Shown: positions 6,693 through 32,622 of the stretch, one piece after another
Numbering within the stretch: position 1 is the first letter of the stretch
Layout of the letters: every line of letters starts with the position of its first letter
NCBI GenBank assembly: GCA_024958715.1
Contig: JANWUS010000009.1
Location: 1 to 35,001 of the forward strand
Length of the DNA stretch: 35,001 nt
Direction of reading: 5' to 3'
Source: Cyanobium sp. FGCU52
GTDB lineage: Bacteria; Cyanobacteriota; Cyanobacteriia; PCC-6307; Cyanobiaceae
Program-made: the position numbers and the translations under genes
The notes under the pieces: model-generated
The model's database searches: none
What the model saw: the letters and a program-made list of their open reading frames with translations, nothing else
What the model was told of the DNA's origin: nothing

Positions 6693-9695
<3,003 letters not shown>

Positions 9696-9835
9696 GTCAT
9701 TTTCTTCTCATTCCTTAAGCCTGCGGACAATTGGGGCCGGAAGGACAGGGTGCACTGGAGGCAAAATATATACATTGGCTTGCGATATTTCTACTTTGTG
9801 ATTAGAAAGGATTTGGATAAGTTTGGAAGGGCGCC

Positions 9836-10867
9836 TTGATCAACCCCAATGAAACACAATTTACATCTACTCTTGATCAGAGCAACCATCCACTGACAAA
9901 GTCTACTTCATCGAGAGATAGTATATCTTCCTGCGCTACTCATCGCCAGACTAATTATAGAAATAATCTTGAGCTTCGCGTCATTGGTATGATGAGAAGC
10001 GGTAATCATGCTGTGATTCAGTGGATTCAGCAGTAGCATCATGGCAAATCATTGGTCTTCCTGAATAACTTAAAACATGGTGATCATGATCCCTTCAAAG
10101 TTTATGAACAGCTTGAAGTTAGTGGCTTCGGTGACTCACCTAGTGGCGATGACCTGGTCACTTGCATGAAAGACGTCTTGATCTATTCGTACGAAGATTG
10201 TAAGTCTATTGAAGAGAATGCAATTGATTTACTTTCTAGTGTCTTTAATGAACAGTTTGAGAAGAATAAGGAGTTGTACCTTGGAAAAAGCAGGAAAAGA
10301 ATGGATGTTTTTATCATTAGAGATCCCTTCAACTTTTTTGCAAGTCGTTTGACCATGATACGCAAGAATCCCATGGGAGGCTTGGATACTCTTAGTCAGG
10401 TTGTTGATAATTGGAAGCTTCTTGCTGACAAGGTTCTTTGCCTTCACCAATCCCCAACAGATCATCAAATTCCAATTCTATATAATCATTTTATACTTGA
10501 TAAAGTTTACCAGCGGCGGTTGTCCCATCATCTTCATGGTGACTTTGTACCTGCATCTCTCCAGAAGATCTCTGGTTACGGTGGTGGAAGCTCATTCTCG
10601 ACGACCTCACGCACGTTGTCTACCAAAGATGTTCTTTATAAGGCACATAAACTATTGAATTTCAAGCGATGGATGCAGATCAAGCATTACTGTAAGCGCT
10701 TTCAGGGTAATCAGCCAAGTTCTTTTCTTACACGCTGGAAAATGTTTGCGGCAGACCAAGAATAACGCCAGATCTTCCGTGATCCTGAGATTCTTAATTT
10801 GTCAGAAAAACTTTTCAGGGAGATTCCAGGGACTCGTAAATTTGTCAGTGAGATTCTTCGGGGTTGA
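9836..10867 (+). pseudogene. Sulfotransferase-like gene broken by two in-frame stops
   Basis: One reading frame runs from TTG 9836 to TGA 10865-10867, interrupted by TAG at 10034-10036 and TAA at 10763-10765. The text on both sides of each stop joins without frame change: LRVIGMMRSGNHAVIQWIQQ, stop, HHGKSLVFLNNLKHGDHDPF; later KMFAADQE, stop, RQIFRDPEILNLSEKLF. The RSGNHAVIQWI segment resembles the 5'-phosphosulfate loop of PAPS-dependent sulfotransferases, and VFIIRDPFNFFASRL resembles the 3'-phosphate-binding RDP-x-S region. Both stops could be C-to-T changes of CAG and CAA. A GGAAGG at 9825-9830, 5 nt before the TTG, would be a good ribosome-binding site. The base composition is far more AT-rich than the surroundings, suggesting transfer. 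The family call is moderate; the single broken frame is clear. Confidence 0.65.
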
Positions 10868-10916
10868 GCTTATCCGTCCATCGGAATCGCCTGACGCTGA
10901 CTTGGTCGCTCTGGGT

Positions 10917-10991
10917 GACGCGATGCAGCGGCTGGTTGACAACGGTGGGGAAATAGTGGAGTCTGGCACGCCGGGGGAGTTGGCGGCCGAG
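10917..10991 (+). pseudogene. Remnant of a uvrA 3' end with an internal deletion
   Basis: The bases at 10917-10945 match uvrA 9459-9487 at 26 of 29 positions (DAMQRLVDNG against DVMQRLVDKG). The remnant then continues directly as GGEIVESGTPGELAAE, which corresponds to uvrA GGEIVVCGTPEEVAE about 30 codons further on. In the intact uvrA the octamer GACAAGGG occurs at 9480-9487 and again at 9570-9577, exactly 90 bp apart; loss of one repeat plus the intervening 82 bp would give the remnant junction. After 10991 the similarity fades; a shifted frame reads LGRFV, perhaps the old TGRYL segment. It is not expressed as a useful protein. Confidence 0.65.
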
Positions 10992-11129
10992 AAGGAGAGA
11001 TCCCGAAGGGGGGGGCGAGCTGGGACGGTTCGTGTGGGGTTCGGAGGCAGTGGTATGGGTGTGTCTGCCGTCTCGGGGATGACATGTGAAGTGGTCTTTG
11101 CCATATTGAAAGTAGAGCGTTGTTTTGGT

Positions 11130-11600
11130 ATGAGCCGTAATCCTGCCCAGGATTTCTTTACGTTCCTGCTTGGAGGCGGTTTGTTTGCAGGTGGAATTTT
11201 TCTTTTGTTGAATCAGGTGATGGTGTCATCCCTCGGTGGTATCGGTCTCGGTGGTTTTGGTCGATGGGGTGGGGGCTATCGCCCTGGCTTGAGATATGGC
11301 TATGGCGGAGGTTGGGGGATGCCTTCCCTGGGCGGCGTTTCGGGAGGCATGGGACTGTTGATGATCCCTTTGGGCATTGGTGTTGCCCTGCTGTTCATGA
11401 ACGTCTTTCGCAAGATGGCATGGTTCATGATCATTGGCTCTTCTGCGGCTCTGATTGCTGGAATCCTGCACAGCATCAACATGCAATTCATGCCAACAAC
11501 ACTGTGGTCGCTTGTCACCATGATTGTGATGATAGGGTCGGGCGCGGGATTGATGTTCAAGTCACTTTACTCAGATCAGGATGAACGATCATCCAGATGA
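11130..11600 (+). CDS. Small membrane protein of unknown function (glycine-rich loop)
   Basis: I recognise no characterised family; it loosely resembles hypothetical bacterial membrane proteins beginning NPxxxFxxFLLGG. The 156 residues start MSRNPAQDFFTFLLGGGLFAG, then a first membrane span (FLLGGGLFAGGIFLLLNQV), a Gly/Tyr/Trp-rich loop (about residues 35-70), and three further hydrophobic segments: MGLLMIPLGIGVALLFMNVF, MAWFMIIGSSAALIAGIL and TLWSLVTMIVMIGSGAGLMF. The frame is open far upstream, through the uvrA remnant, so I chose ATG 11130 where the hydrophobic domain begins; no strong ribosome-binding site decides it. The stop overlaps the next gene by 20 bp, so the two are likely co-translated. 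G+C is clearly below that of the chromosomal backbone. Confidence 0.65.
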   Translation: MSRNPAQDFFTFLLGGGLFAGGIFLLLNQVMVSSLGGIGLGGFGRWGGGYRPGLRYGYGGGWGMPSLGGVSGGMGLLMIPLGIGVALLFMNVFRKMAWFMIIGSSAALIAGILHSINMQFMPTTLWSLVTMIVMIGSGAGLMFKSLYSDQDERSSR

Positions 11601-12141
11601 ATCGGTTCAGGATGAGCTGAACGATCTTATTCGTGAGATGGAAGAATCCGATGGAGCAAAGGATCATTCGGAAAAAGCTGCACGCACCACACAGGACGCG
11701 TCTCACTTTGCTTCCATGTTGTTCTTTTTGTCCCTGGTCGGAATGATGTGTATGGGACTTGGTTTCTGGGTTGGCCAGTCAACTGCCAAGATCGCCCAGT
11801 CGCAGGGTTCCCTGTCCAGAGATCACTTGGTGTCTGCACAGCAGGGTTGGAGGGCTGAGGGATCCGGCGTTTTCTATCGTTGGTGCCGGGGGGAATGTCA
11901 TGCTCCCAAGCTGTATGGGGGAGGAGTGAGTCAAGTGTTCGAAGTTCGCTGTGCGGATCGCCCATGTGGAGACCTTCACATGCGTTTCAATGTCCTGAAT
12001 GCCCAGGGTCAACCCATTGATCAGATTGTGTTGAAGGAGAGGGGACTGCAGGGGGAACTGCGACGTTTCATCGTTGAAAGCCAGGATCAGGCTGCGGTTT
12101 CCATCGAACTGAGTGAATTCAACGCTCGCGCCCGGATCTGA
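11581..12141 (+). CDS. Single-span membrane protein of unknown function
   Basis: A 186-residue protein of no family I recognise. It has an acidic N-terminus (NDLIREMEESD), one membrane span at about residues 44-67 (FASMLFFLSLVGMMCMGLGFWVG), and a C-terminal region of ~115 residues containing four cysteines (WCRGECHAP, VRCADRPCGDL) that could form disulfides if it faces the periplasm. The end of the chain (LNAQGQPIDQIVLKERGLQGELRRFIVES) looks beta-rich. It begins inside the last codons of the preceding membrane-protein gene, implying a two-gene operon whose products may work together. The same frame stays open for 31 codons after the TGA. Confidence 0.65.
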   Translation: MNDHPDESVQDELNDLIREMEESDGAKDHSEKAARTTQDASHFASMLFFLSLVGMMCMGLGFWVGQSTAKIAQSQGSLSRDHLVSAQQGWRAEGSGVFYRWCRGECHAPKLYGGGVSQVFEVRCADRPCGDLHMRFNVLNAQGQPIDQIVLKERGLQGELRRFIVESQDQAAVSIELSEFNARARI

Positions 12142-12453: not shown

Positions 12454-14637
12454 TTGGGTCTGTACGTCCTCCACCTCCATCTCCATGGTCTGTTCCGAGG
12501 CCGTGACCTGGAGCTCGGGCGTGATCCCGACACGGGCGGACAGACCACCTACGTGCTGGAGCTGGCCCGCAGCCTGGCGGCCCGTCCGGAGGTGGAGCGG
12601 GTGGAGGTGGTCACCCGGCTGATCCACGACCGCCGCGTTTCGGCCGACTACGCCCGCCCCACCGAGCCGATCGGCCCCGATGCCGTGATTCGGCGCTTCG
12701 CCTTCGGGCCCCGCCGCTACCTGCGCAAGGAACTGCTCTGGCCCCATCTCGACGAACTGGCCGACAGCCTGGCGGAGACGCTGCTGGCCCAGCCCCGCCT
12801 GCCGGACTGGATCCATGCCCACTACGCCGATGCCGGTTATGTGGGGGCCCTGCTGCGCCGCCGTCTGGGCATCCCGCTGGTGTTCACCGGCCATTCCCTC
12901 GGCCGGGAGAAACGGCGCCGGCTGATGGCCAGCGGCCTGGAGCCCGGCCAGATCGACCAGCAGTACGCCATGGCCCGGCGGATCGATGCCGAGGAACTGG
13001 CGTTGGCCCACAGCTCCCTGGTGGTCACCAGCACCGGCCAGGAGCGTGACGTGCAGTACGCCCGCTATGGGCGTTTCCGCCCTGAGTGCTCGCGTGTGAT
13101 CCCCCCGGGGGTCGATGCCCATCAGTTCTTCCCGCCCCAGCCGTCCCGCCGCGACGCCGACCTGGTGGTGGAGTCCCTGATGCAGCCGTTCCTGAGGGAA
13201 CCGGCCAAACCGCCGGTGCTCTCGATCTGCCGGGCCGATCATCGCAAGAACATTCCGGCCCTGGTGGAGGTGTTCGGCCGTTCCGATCACCTCCGCCAGC
13301 ACCACAACCTGGTGCTGGTGCTGGGCTGTCGTTCCGATCCGCGCCAGCTGGAGAAGGCCCAGCGCGAGGTGTTCCAGCAGGTGTTCGAACTTGTGGATCG
13401 CTTCGATCTCTACGGCAAGGTGGCCTATCCCAAACAGCACGAGCGCGCCCAGATCCCTGAGATCTACCGCTGGGCGGCCCGGCGCCGGGGCGTGTTCGTC
13501 AACCCGGCGCTCACCGAGCCGTTCGGTCTCACCCTGCTGGAGGCGGCCGCCTGCGGGTTGCCGGTGGTGGCCACCGACGACGGGGGGCCGCGAGACATCC
13601 TCCAGCGCTGCGAGAACGGTCTGCTGGTGGACGTCTCCGACCTCGACGCCCTGCAGCAGGGGGTGGAGGAGAGCCTCCGCTCACCCGCCCGCTGGCAGAC
13701 CTGGAGCACCAACGGCATCGAAGCCGTCAGCCGGCACTACAGCTGGGATGCCCACGTGCTCCAGTACCTCGGAGAGGTCACGGCGGCCCTCAGCTCCGCC
13801 GCTGCCCAGCGGCCTGCGCTCTGGTTCCGCCATGCCGCAGATCCGGCGGCAGCGGCAGCTCACCGCCGCCTGCTGGTGCTCGACCTCGACGCCTGTCTGG
13901 TTCGGCCCGATCCCGCCAGCCTCGGCGAACTCAGGCGGCGCCTGGAGGCCGATCCCCAGTTGGCGATCGGGGTGGCCACGGGCCGGGGATTCAAGTCGGC
14001 TCGGCTGCGCTTCGCCGAACTGGGCCTCCCGCATCCGGTGCTCTGGATCACCCGCACCGGCAGCGAGATCCACCTCGCCCAGGATGACGCCGAGGCCGAC
14101 GCCGAAGAACCGCTCTATGCGCCCGATCCCCACTGGGAGCGCCACATCGCCCGTCACTGGGACCGGGCGGGGGTGGTGGCGGCCCTGGCCGAACTGGGGG
14201 ATCGTCTGAGGCTCCAGGGGCCGGGCGACCAGGGCCCCTACAAGGTGAGCTACACCCTCGGCGAGGCTGATCAGAGCATCCTGCCTTCGGTGCGCCAGGC
14301 TCTGCATCACCGGGGTCTGCTGGCGCGGCCCCAGCTCTTCCAGCACTGGTATCTCGACGTCCTGCCCCTCACCGCCTCGAAGTCGGAAGCGATCCGCTAC
14401 CTCGCCCTGCGCTGGAACCTGCCTCTGGGCAGCATCCTGGTGGAGGCGGCCCAGCAGGGCGATGGTGAGCTGCTGCGGGGCCTGCCCCTCGGTGTCGTGC
14501 CCGACGACCATGACCCTGCCCTTGAGAGCCTGCGGGGGCGGCGGCGGGTGTTCTTCGCTTCACGCCCCCAGGCCTGGGGACTGCTTGAGGGTCTCGACCA
14601 TCACCGTTTCCTCAGGCCCGGCGGCGACAGCCGCTGA
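12454..14637 (+). CDS. Sucrose-phosphate synthase with fused HAD (SPP-like) domain
   Basis: Makes sucrose-6-phosphate from UDP-glucose and fructose-6-phosphate, for compatible-solute and carbon storage. Residues 1-~450 are a GT-B glycosyltransferase (family GT4): LHLHGLFRG and DPDTGGQTTYVLELARSL at the N-terminus, TGHSLGREKRRRL in the middle, and the donor-site motif TEPFGLTLLEAAACGLPVVA. Residues ~470-727 are an HAD phosphatase-like domain with DLDACL (Asp477, Asp479), ATGRGFKS and Lys643 in SKSEAI. Its last motif, normally GDSGND, reads AAQQGD, so the first metal-binding Asp is Ala. Phosphatase activity is therefore doubtful. The TTG at 12454 is the only plausible start after an in-frame TGA at 12430 that still includes MGLYVLHLHLHGLF. 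It converges on the LCP gene with a 15-bp gap. Confidence 0.93.
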   Translation: MGLYVLHLHLHGLFRGRDLELGRDPDTGGQTTYVLELARSLAARPEVERVEVVTRLIHDRRVSADYARPTEPIGPDAVIRRFAFGPRRYLRKELLWPHLDELADSLAETLLAQPRLPDWIHAHYADAGYVGALLRRRLGIPLVFTGHSLGREKRRRLMASGLEPGQIDQQYAMARRIDAEELALAHSSLVVTSTGQERDVQYARYGRFRPECSRVIPPGVDAHQFFPPQPSRRDADLVVESLMQPFLREPAKPPVLSICRADHRKNIPALVEVFGRSDHLRQHHNLVLVLGCRSDPRQLEKAQREVFQQVFELVDRFDLYGKVAYPKQHERAQIPEIYRWAARRRGVFVNPALTEPFGLTLLEAAACGLPVVATDDGGPRDILQRCENGLLVDVSDLDALQQGVEESLRSPARWQTWSTNGIEAVSRHYSWDAHVLQYLGEVTAALSSAAAQRPALWFRHAADPAAAAAHRRLLVLDLDACLVRPDPASLGELRRRLEADPQLAIGVATGRGFKSARLRFAELGLPHPVLWITRTGSEIHLAQDDAEADAEEPLYAPDPHWERHIARHWDRAGVVAALAELGDRLRLQGPGDQGPYKVSYTLGEADQSILPSVRQALHHRGLLARPQLFQHWYLDVLPLTASKSEAIRYLALRWNLPLGSILVEAAQQGDGELLRGLPLGVVPDDHDPALESLRGRRRVFFASRPQAWGLLEGLDHHRFLRPGGDSR

Positions 14638-14652: not shown

Positions 14653-15663
14653 TCAGGGCGTGGGTTCCTCGCCGCTGCCGGTGGGATGGGCCGTGTTGGT
14701 GTCGGGCATCCAGTAGCTGAGATCGTCCTGCCAGTAGAGGCGCCCCGGCAGCCGCGTGGTGCTCAGCTTGGTGCGGGCCATCGCCGTCAGCAGCTGGGTC
14801 ATCTCGATCGGCGTCAGGTCCGTACGGATGTCCTCGCCGGCGATCTTCAGCAGCGCGGGCAGCTGGGCGAGGGTGGAGGGCTGGACGAGGCGCGTGAACA
14901 CCTGGTTGATCACCAGCCGCTGCCGTTCCATCCGGCCCAGGTCGCCCGCCTCGTCGTGGCGGAAGCGCAGGAACCCGAGCAGGTCGTCGCCGCGCAGCAC
15001 CTGGCGGCCGGGGTAGAGGTCGATGTAGAGGCCCTGGGCATTGTCCACGTAGTACATGCGCTTGGGTACGTCGACTTCGACCCCGCCGAGGGCGTTGGCC
15101 ACCTTGGCCACCGCGTCGAGATCCACCCGCAGGTAGCGCTCCACCGGTTCACCCACCAGATGGCCCACCTCCCGCTTGGCGGCCTCGATGCCGCTGGTGG
15201 CGAGCAGGGCGTTGGCCTTCATCACCGGCTCTCCCGGCTGCTCCACGTAGGTGTCGCGGGGCACCTGGGTGATGCGGGTGATGCCGTCGCCGATCTGGAC
15301 GGTGAACATCACATCGGTGTTCTCACCGACGTGATCGGTGCCCACCACCAGCACGCGGCGATTGCCGATCCCCAGCGGATCCAGCACGGCCGCCAGGCTC
15401 CTGGGGCCATTCAGCAGACCCGCCAGGGTGGCGGCACCATTGCGGGCCAGTTCGGGCAGCGGTCCGGCCAGGCCATAGCCCAGGCTCAGGCCCAGGGCGA
15501 AGCTCAGCAGGGCCGGCCGGCGCCGACGCGGTGGGGAGGGCTGGGAAGGGCGTCGTCGGCTCAGCAGATCGGGAACGGTTGTCAGGCCGGCCTTTGCCCC
15601 TGCCCGCCCGTTTCGATCCCGCGATCCTCGGCGCTGGGGGACATGGGACTGTGCCTGGCTCAT
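14653..15663 (-). CDS. LytR-CpsA-Psr (LCP) family cell-wall glycopolymer ligase
   Basis: A membrane-anchored transferase that attaches undecaprenyl-linked polymers to peptidoglycan. The N-terminus is basic (RRRRP), followed by one membrane span (ALLSFALGLSLGYGLAGPL), and then the extracellular LCP domain. Family residues are visible: LVVGTDHVGENTDVMFTVQI, where the Asp lies in the pyrophosphate site; ITQVPRDTYVE with the conserved Arg; and FLRFRHDEAGDLGRMERQR with its Arg-Asp-Arg set. An ATG at 15663 (MSQAQSHVPQ) is preferred to the GTG at 15675. The 336-aa length is typical. No specific glycan can be assigned. purT lies just upstream on the same strand. Confidence 0.9.
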   Translation of the reverse strand: MSQAQSHVPQRRGSRDRNGRAGAKAGLTTVPDLLSRRRPSQPSPPRRRRPALLSFALGLSLGYGLAGPLPELARNGAATLAGLLNGPRSLAAVLDPLGIGNRRVLVVGTDHVGENTDVMFTVQIGDGITRITQVPRDTYVEQPGEPVMKANALLATSGIEAAKREVGHLVGEPVERYLRVDLDAVAKVANALGGVEVDVPKRMYYVDNAQGLYIDLYPGRQVLRGDDLLGFLRFRHDEAGDLGRMERQRLVINQVFTRLVQPSTLAQLPALLKIAGEDIRTDLTPIEMTQLLTAMARTKLSTTRLPGRLYWQDDLSYWMPDTNTAHPTGSGEEPTP

Positions 15664-15728
15664 GGTCGTTCCCACCGGGCCGCACCATAAGGCCCGAATC
15701 CTGCCGCTACCAGTGGGCTGCGCCGGTT

Positions 15729-30791: not shown

Positions 30792-31016
30792 GGCGGGTTC
30801 GAACAGCAGGGTTTCCTGGTTCAGGGGGTGGGGCGGCAGGGGGCCAGGACGTCCTTCATCTTGCTGGTGCGCCGGTCGGGGGCGTCGGGGGCACGGGGGC
30901 GCTGATCCCGAGGTCGTGGCGCTGACATTCGATTTTGCGTGGGGGCGATTCTGCTTTGCCCGCTTTTCTGCCTGTCGTGGCAGCGTGTGGCGTTTCCCGG
31001 GATCCGCCCAGTAAGC

Positions 31017-31046
31017 ATTAGATATACAAAATGGCGGATATGTCAA
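31017..31046 (-). promoter_or_regulatory. Candidate sigma70-type promoter for the radical SAM gene
   Basis: On the minus strand, TTGACA (31046-31041) and TCTAAT (31022-31017; 5 of 6 to TATAAT) are 18 bp apart in a locally AT-rich stretch. It would start transcription near 31005-31010, leaving a leader of about 210 nt before GTG 30791. It covers the ATG at 31046, so that ATG would not be transcribed from this promoter. Confidence 0.5.
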
Positions 31047-31650
31047 TGACAGACTCGAGGTGTATCATCGGTGTTGTGGCGGATTTCCGGAATGGCTCGA
31101 GTATTCAGGGTGAACAATTGGGCCACCTCTTTCGCCATGTGTTCGACCAGTGGTGACTGGTGTAATTGCGGCAGAAATGTACTTGAATTGTCTCCTCGTG
31201 CTGACTACAGCGGCAATCCCGAAAGCGTGCAAGCTGGGAGACCTTTGCAAAAGCCTGTCGTCCGATGCGTGAATTGTTGTCCATGCACGCAGTAAGTCTA
31301 TCGATTCAGCTGTCGGAGTGATCCGAGGTGAATTGGCCGCCTCCATGCGACTTGGTTTCAACGCAGATATATCTTCGAGAGCAAGAGTGGGAGGATTTGC
31401 CTCGACTTCAAAGGTTTTCGCGCTGCTTGCCCAGTCTGCATGAGGTTATCCTGGTGATCCGGCCCGATTGGAGGATGTTGAGGTGGTGAGCAATCGCACT
31501 GTGCTCATCTCTCAAGGTTTTGTGGCTGTCCAGCAACGCCATAGACCTGAGTCGCCACCGTATGGCCATCTATTGGCGTATGACTAGCTGCGGCCAGGTG
31601 ATGGTGAGTCTCAGACCGACGGTACTGCTTGCAAATCGCGAGGTGACACC
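31047..31650. other. AT-richer region without a recognisable gene
   Basis: About 600 bp with lower G+C than the flanks. I find no convincing coding frame on either strand: the short open frames (for example 31065-31361 minus, 31071-31295 plus) have unlikely amino-acid composition. A frame around 31450-31588 (plus) with VSNRTVLISQGFVAVQQRHR and then PESPPYGHLLAYD looks slightly more protein-like and may be a gene remnant. The end holds the ribosome-binding site (GAGGTGA, 31640-31646) of the following oxidoreductase. Confidence 0.4.
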
Positions 31651-32622
31651 TTGAAAGCGGTTGTTCAGCGCGACTACGGCTCTCCAGATGTCCTGGAGCT
31701 GATGGACATCGACAAGCCGATGGTCGGTGACGACGAGGTGCTCGTGCGTGTGCGCGCGGCTGCGCTGAACCCTTCTGACTGGGCAGCTGTTCATGGTGTG
31801 CCCTACATCGTCCGCCTGGCCTTTGGGCTACGCAGACCGAGGCTCGCCGTTCGCGGCTCGGACATGGCGGGAACCGTCGCTGCTGTCGGCACGAACGTCA
31901 CCGGTCTGCGGGTCGGAGACGAGGTCTTCGGCCGTGGCGTCGGCACGTTCGCCGAGTACGCGGCTGCCCCCGTGCAGCTCCTGGTGACCAAGCCGGCGAC
32001 CATCACCTTCGAGCAGGCTGCCGGCGTTCCGATGTCCGGGCTCACCGCTCTCCAGGCGCTGCGGGACGCCGGTGGCATTCAGCACGGGCAGAAGGTGCTG
32101 ATCGTTGGCGCCGGCGGAGGCGTCGGCACGTTTGCGGTGCAGATCGCCAAGGCGTTCGGCGCCGAAGTGACGGCCGTGTGCAGTCCGTCGAAGCAGGCGC
32201 TGGTGCGATCCATCGGCGCCGACCACGTCATCGACTACACGCAGGACGACTTCACCCAGGCTGAGAAGCGCTATGACCTTGTGCTTGACAATGTTCTACG
32301 GCATTCGTTGTCGGACCTCCTGCGAGTGCTGAACCGCAAGGGAACGCTGGTGCCCAACGGCGGTCAGTTCCACAAGCGCTGGTTGGGCAGCGCCGGAGTC
32401 CTCCTGATCAAGGCACCCCTGCTCTCGAAGGTCGTGCCACAGCGGATTCGCGTGTGCTCGGAACACCCCAATCAGGCCGACCTCCTGTTCCTGAGAGAGT
32501 TGCTGGATGCCGGGACGCTCAATCCCGTCGTTGGCGGGACTTACCCTCTCGGCCAGGCTCGTGAGGCGATGGTCCACTTCGGCGAGGGACACGCTGAAGG
32601 GAAGGTCGTCATCACCGTCTGA
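31651..32622 (+). CDS. Medium-chain NAD(P)H-dependent oxidoreductase (quinone reductase type)
   Basis: A 323-residue zinc-independent MDR enzyme. The N-terminal domain starts MKAVVQRDYGSPDVLELMDI and has LNPSDWAAVHGVPYIVRLAF. The cofactor domain shows VLIVGAGGGVGTFAVQIAKA, the NADP-binding glycine motif AxxGGVG, and ADHVIDYTQDDFTQ. Cys/His residues for the catalytic zinc of alcohol dehydrogenases are missing, so it is closer to NADPH:quinone reductases. The phrase YIVRLAFGLRRPR recalls actinobacterial homologues, suggesting transfer. It starts with TTG 31651 after GAGGTGA (31640-31646). The physiological substrate is unknown. It converges on the protease-lipase gene with a 17-bp gap. Confidence 0.88.
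   Translation: MKAVVQRDYGSPDVLELMDIDKPMVGDDEVLVRVRAAALNPSDWAAVHGVPYIVRLAFGLRRPRLAVRGSDMAGTVAAVGTNVTGLRVGDEVFGRGVGTFAEYAAAPVQLLVTKPATITFEQAAGVPMSGLTALQALRDAGGIQHGQKVLIVGAGGGVGTFAVQIAKAFGAEVTAVCSPSKQALVRSIGADHVIDYTQDDFTQAEKRYDLVLDNVLRHSLSDLLRVLNRKGTLVPNGGQFHKRWLGSAGVLLIKAPLLSKVVPQRIRVCSEHPNQADLLFLRELLDAGTLNPVVGGTYPLGQAREAMVHFGEGHAEGKVVITV

Follow-up and report, generated by a model that had tools for sequence, protein, structure and literature searches.

In a stretch of 35,001 nucleotides from Cyanobium sp. FGCU52 (here called the window), positions 10911 to 10991 of the forward strand repeat the 3' end of uvrA in decayed form, with an internal loss of 90 bp. Very probably this remnant is the former end of the gene itself, displaced when a small mobile element carrying an integrase inserted into uvrA, an origin that for the window we infer by comparison with relatives. 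Related cyanobacteria most likely display the same event at fresher stages.

The core of the remnant is the match between uvrA 9459-9487 and window positions 10917-10945, in which sequence comparison gave 26 identical bases out of 29, as claimed in the initial annotation of this DNA. The octamer GACAAGGG occurs twice in uvrA, at 9480-9487 and 9570-9577, with a spacing of exactly 90 bp. The remnant resumes after the second of them, its junction (10938-10945, GACAACGG) differing from the octamer by one base, and colinearity past the skip reaches about 10985-10991, which bears out the 90-bp skip between octamers proposed there. With cheap long gaps, the alignment that includes the skip scored 29.5 (1,000 shuffles: mean, 9.8; maximum, 20.1; none reaching 29.5). 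With ordinary gap costs, the best alignment had no skip and scored 28.0 (shuffles: mean, 13.2; maximum, 23; 0 of 1,000 reaching the score); it pairs the left part of the remnant weakly with uvrA 9525-9570 and leaves the 26-of-29 block unused, and because of that block the alignment with the skip was preferred. In register (offset 1458), the identical bases per nine positions were 2, 0, 3, 2, 4 and 3 across uvrA 9399-9452 and 6, 8, 8 and 7 across 9453-9488. Identity thus switches on at uvrA 9453, the left edge is sharp and the copy begins at 10911; the extent first given (10917-10991) is indeed a copy of uvrA, but its start has to be moved six bases to the left. Over 26 codons, the remnant and uvrA show 6 synonymous and 8 nonsynonymous differences, a pattern expected after displacement and decay that by itself proves nothing. 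Slippage between the two octamers fits the geometry of the deletion and may have produced it; if the remnant was displaced by integration, the loss of these 90 bp would belong to its later decay.

The second half of the remnant (GEIVESGTPGEL) is of a motif type presumably common to many ABC ATPases, which would speak for some other ABC-type gene as its source. We rejected this origin, which we regard as hardly credible: the first half is uvrA at 26 of 29 bases, the second half is colinear with it, and the window's own genome holds no better match, either to the DNA or to the 26-amino-acid peptide. At an E value of 0.001, positions 10860-11130 matched only themselves and uvrA 9459-9487, and at E values up to 10 the peptide retrieved nothing beyond itself and uvrA, the latter with an E value of 0.70 that is weak owing to the shortness of the peptide.

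The genes of this part of the window all lie on the forward strand, in the order uvrA (6693-9695), a broken gene (9836-10867), the remnant, ORF156 (11130-11600), ORF186 (11581-12141) and a sucrose-phosphate synthase-like gene recognized by Pfam (SPS, 12454-14637). The uvrA gene is intact (1,000 amino acids, with UvrA domains in Pfam and protein identities of 91 to 98% to the listed loci of the genus). SPS is its native right neighbor: the uninterrupted order uvrA-SPS, which the initial annotation had expected of strains lacking the insert, was found in G010, G024 and G027, where the matched ends are 158, 161 and 216 bp apart, respectively. The stretch from 9696 to 10910 has a G+C content of 41.7% against 68.9% in uvrA, so that an AT-rich insert is, as had been described, bracketed by two uvrA ends. 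This value is like that of the elements of relatives described below (41.5 to 43.3% in G208 and L157, with uvrA at 64 to 69%). A second dip in G+C content, to 51 to 55%, lies at 31001-31750.

The broken gene is interrupted by two in-frame stops (TAG at 10034 and TAA at 10763) and has 58% identity to an intact 352-amino-acid gene located directly after uvrA in G030. By our own reading of a P-loop-like motif, it could be sulfotransferase-like; no Pfam family was reported for it or for its G030 relative. A search of 149 genomes gave relatives of the broken gene in six, namely, its own genome, G030 and four more distant ones at 31 to 40%. The window and G030 copies are 69% identical in DNA, compared with 83% at the third positions of uvrA, and their spacers do not align. 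Since the insert gene is more divergent than uvrA, the two inserts may represent separate events. Replacement of the window's uvrA 3' end could not be read from excess divergence from G030, since identity is 90.9% after the crossover point defined below and 93.6% before it, a difference too small to use. In G030 (L038:3287-4424), uvrA and the 352-amino-acid gene are followed directly by a LytR-like gene (14653-15675 in the window), and SPS is missing there. Apart from the uvrA tail, no genes of the elements were recognized in the window insert, and no tyrosine integrase of the family found beside uvrA tails is left anywhere in the window's genome.

We searched 400 genomes of the family for uvrA tails and found matches in 349, usually two per genome, corresponding to the tail and to the related first half of UvrA. 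Twelve genomes listed with more than two matches, together with G314 (short open frame), were searched again, and extra tails were accepted in nine (G021, G058, G125, G146, G157, G159, G208, G314 and G317), with five tail pieces on a single contig in G317. The others were set aside: G296 carries uvrA twice in almost equal form, and its assembly is 6% contaminated; in G022 uvrA is divided among contigs on which part of the gene is repeated; and in G019 and G381 the extra match was not a uvrA tail. Because the window's own genome gave no more than the usual pair of matches, this search overlooks decayed tails, and nine is a lower bound. Among 46 loci in which uvrA is followed by at least 1 kb, a set that includes loci chosen for having tails, downstream DNA matching the genome's own uvrA end was detected in seven (G000, G058, G208, G146, G159 and, weakly, G023 and G296), against 0 of 46 in the reversed-sequence control. 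Between displaced and working ends, the ratios of synonymous to nonsynonymous codon differences were 23:2 and 19:1 in G208, 12:3 in G146, 9:5 in G021 and 12:10 in G159, and the G157 copies differ by one base. The synonymous-rich divergence of the G208 and G146 tails indicates that those copies once served in working genes. Whether the working tail of G208 is foreign got no answer from its genus mate G141, to which the working, middle and distal tails are 87.6, 83.6 and 86.7% identical. In G058 (L037:3478-5877), a protein of 799 amino acids with sulfatase-modifying-factor, CHRD and DUF4114 domains is encoded between uvrA and the displaced tail.

Seven integrases adjoin uvrA tails (two in G208, one in G314, two in G317, one in G021 and one in the IMG/VR contig L157), all of them on the strand opposite to uvrA. 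The Pfam Phage_integrase domain was recognized with E values of 2e-15 (G208) and 6.6e-18 (L157); in G021 the integrase ORF (3.3e-13) begins 30 bp from the uvrA tail. The clearest arrangement is that of G208, assembled as a single contig, in which two elements follow uvrA in tandem. They share 92% identity over 5 kb, and both encode an integrase of 366 amino acids and terminate in a uvrA 3' end; the gene after them is gyrA by our own reading. G317 has two integrases, each with its own tail, as well as three other tail pieces and SPS, and G314 has one integrase, one tail and a gyrA-like gene. Two of the seven integrases are incomplete: that of G314 ends at 327 amino acids, and that of G021 runs into sequence that recurs at other contig edges, as if cut by a repeated element (this end, L036:1-150, recurs at 13 other places of the genome, mostly near contig edges). 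Among 11 integrase loci retrieved in two scans, a uvrA tail adjoins in four (L147, with two integrases, L148, L154 and L157), and the remaining seven have no adjoining uvrA tail (L149 to L153 and the partial L155 and L156).

When the window remnant was aligned with 13 displaced tails from relatives, two recurrent start points emerged. Four tails (the two of G208, one of G314 and one of G317) start at the first, uvrA 9444-9453 (class A), and three (one of G317 and those of G125 and G021) start at the second, uvrA 9504, at the codons Glu-His-Asn-Leu. The L157 tail has the second boundary, and that of G157 begins at a contig edge. Five of the 13 (two in G317 and those of G146, G159 and G058) start at neither point and were taken as eroded. 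The remnant of the window, with identity from 9453, starts at the first crossover point, and the part of its uvrA that an element would have supplied is 9453-9695. In a tree of 12 integrases, the four of the first class fall in one clade (support, 99/98) and the three of the second in another (100/100); all seven uvrA integrases form one side of the tree with a support of only 77/87. No integrase was present on the contig with the G125 tail. Phage and plasmid collections contained 168 and 20 records, respectively, related to these integrases, all below 60% identity; the best coverage among the matches listed was that of two records of the Planktothrix phage PaV-LD, at 25.7% identity.

These data bear on two simpler origins of the remnant. 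In the first, the uvrA 3' end would simply have been duplicated in place; AT-rich DNA would later have separated the two copies, one of which decayed. Common events would suffice for it, and the window alone, with its short remnant and no integrase, would fit. It becomes rather unlikely once the relatives are considered, given extra tails in at least nine other genomes, the location of seven tails beside integrases, the match between fixed tail starts and integrase clades, and the past service of the G208 and G146 tails in working genes. The second is the arrival of foreign DNA bringing its own uvrA 3' end and neighboring genes by homologous or illegitimate recombination, with no integrase involved. 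In its favor, both uvrA ends of G021 have similar sequence after the stop codon and related downstream genes, similarity also extends beyond the stop in G058, and five tails have no clean border; the fixed start points and adjacent integrases of the fresh cases stand against it, and we give it little credence.

The IMG/VR contig L157 could be an excised circular form of such an element. It is 3,506 bp long with an exact direct terminal repeat of 127 bp located within the uvrA tail; when closed, it would measure 3,379 bp and contain a single uvrA 3' end that is preserved up to its stop codon. A tandem array of identical copies would yield a contig of the same kind, so the circle is provisional. 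Besides the integrase, L157 encodes an FkbM-type methyltransferase and a protein of 189 amino acids that weakly matches a replication initiation family (E = 0.0023). Scans of viral contigs with the integrase alignment and with the 189-amino-acid protein gave one match each, in both cases L157. When eight element proteins (a subset of the element ORFs) were compared with PHROGs, the matches were to integrases, a methyltransferase and, weakly (E about 0.002), primase and replication families, with no packaging family of the kind that would mark a phage satellite.

Taken together, the integrase-adjacent tails, tandem elements, fixed start points and L157 suggest that small elements insert in the uvrA 3' end, supply a new end and displace the old one. 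Each would encode a tyrosine integrase and bring along the last 60 to 80 codons of uvrA in functional form; the integrase would recombine this copy with the chromosomal gene at a fixed point, interrupting uvrA and in the same step completing it with the tail of the element, and the old tail would come to lie at the far edge. A displaced old end together with a working, element-supplied end is found in relatives (the G208 tandem, the L157 tail running to the stop and the synonymous-rich differences), as is an integrase at the element edge beside the attachment site, which the window lacks. Here, the same process may well have been followed by loss of the integrase and by two in-frame stops in the remaining gene of the insert, and the displaced tail, free of selection, would have lost 90 bp and gathered substitutions. 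Counting against integration are the integrase-less genome of the window, the five off-point tails and the slight divergence of the 3' end. The insert had been thought to have arrived with a partial uvrA duplication; the duplication is real, but under integration the remnant would be the former resident end and not the newcomer, and the relatives point, as to the mode of arrival, to site-specific integration by a tyrosine integrase into the uvrA 3' end.

ORF156 (membrane-protein-like by eye) and ORF186, which pairs with it, have no assigned family, and their presence beyond the remnant may reflect an earlier round at the same place. In G146, a related pair (71% identity for the ORF directly after uvrA, 47% for the counterpart of ORF186) follows intact uvrA and precedes the displaced tail; ORF156 and ORF186 of the window come after the remnant. 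This placement was read as two rounds of integration, the earlier of which would have brought ORF156 and ORF186 and the second the AT-rich insert with the new uvrA end. Against two rounds, no second displaced tail was found between ORF186 and SPS (best score, 15.4; shuffles: mean, 12.7; maximum, 20.6), and the spacer between the remnant and ORF156 has no significant alignment with that between uvrA and ORF154 of G146 (382 of 1,000 shuffles as good). Moreover, ORF186 has relatives in 36 of 149 genomes, and in two genomes assembled as single contigs, G020 and G023, they are located away from uvrA, which indicates that the pair is not typical cargo.

Phage 21 and the element e14 integrate in the icd gene of Escherichia coli by a tyrosine integrase, and the site of the element restores the end of the gene. 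The uvrA elements similarly combine a tyrosine integrase with insertion toward the 3' end of a core protein-coding gene; however, gene and hosts are others, and the elements are much smaller (about 3.4 to 6.8 kb) and accrete in tandem. The likeness drawn here is one of arrangement. Cargo and a tyrosine recombinase are also shared with the tycheposons of Prochlorococcus and Methylophilaceae, described as cargo islands of 4 to 200 kb bordered by tRNA genes in streamlined aquatic bacteria (PMC10872708), although here the recombinases are likened by description and not by sequence. The site of the uvrA elements is a protein gene and not a tRNA gene: the seven integrases adjoin uvrA 3' ends, and ARAGORN detected no tRNA in L157. 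Satellite prophages of Streptococcus pneumoniae are likewise small and attach by uvrA, at a 24-bp intergenic site upstream of the gene (PMC10383233, PMC8637289). In contrast, the site of the uvrA elements is inside the 3' coding part, so that the gene end is exchanged. In a study of freshwater picocyanobacteria, most strains are reported to have phage integrases (PMC9361551). We found no description of integration into the uvrA 3' end in the literature within reach, which mostly excluded subscription papers, and as far as we searched, small elements inserting in and exchanging this end are undescribed.

A broader reading, which we advance tentatively and with more doubt than assurance, is that exchange at the uvrA 3' end recurs in these cyanobacteria: working C-terminal segments of UvrA would pass between strains on elements of two integrase clades, so that many UvrA tails would be element-borne, and sister integrases would use a methylpurine-DNA glycosylase gene instead. 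If true, the elements would be a family living in DNA repair genes. Integration at uvrA, as proposed above, by itself makes an odd fragment of 80 bp the trace of earlier insertions at a single place in the chromosome, and it means that a mobile element may exchange part of a core DNA repair protein. For small cyanobacterial mobile elements, it provides integrases of two specificities, a candidate for the attachment site and what may be a circular form. The sister integrases, 55 to 61% identical to that of G208, belong to Cyanobium usitatum, a Lac Pavin MAG and Synechococcus sp. 8F6, and all three adjoin a duplicated first part of the glycosylase gene (Pfam E value of 3.1e-27 for the L149 copy). 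Two Vulcanococcus records also have integrase relatives within this range of identity. That two DNA repair genes should be integrase targets is noteworthy, albeit from few cases. At L149, L150 and L151, the integrase (at 8001 of each) separates the duplicated first part from a longer copy of the glycosylase gene.
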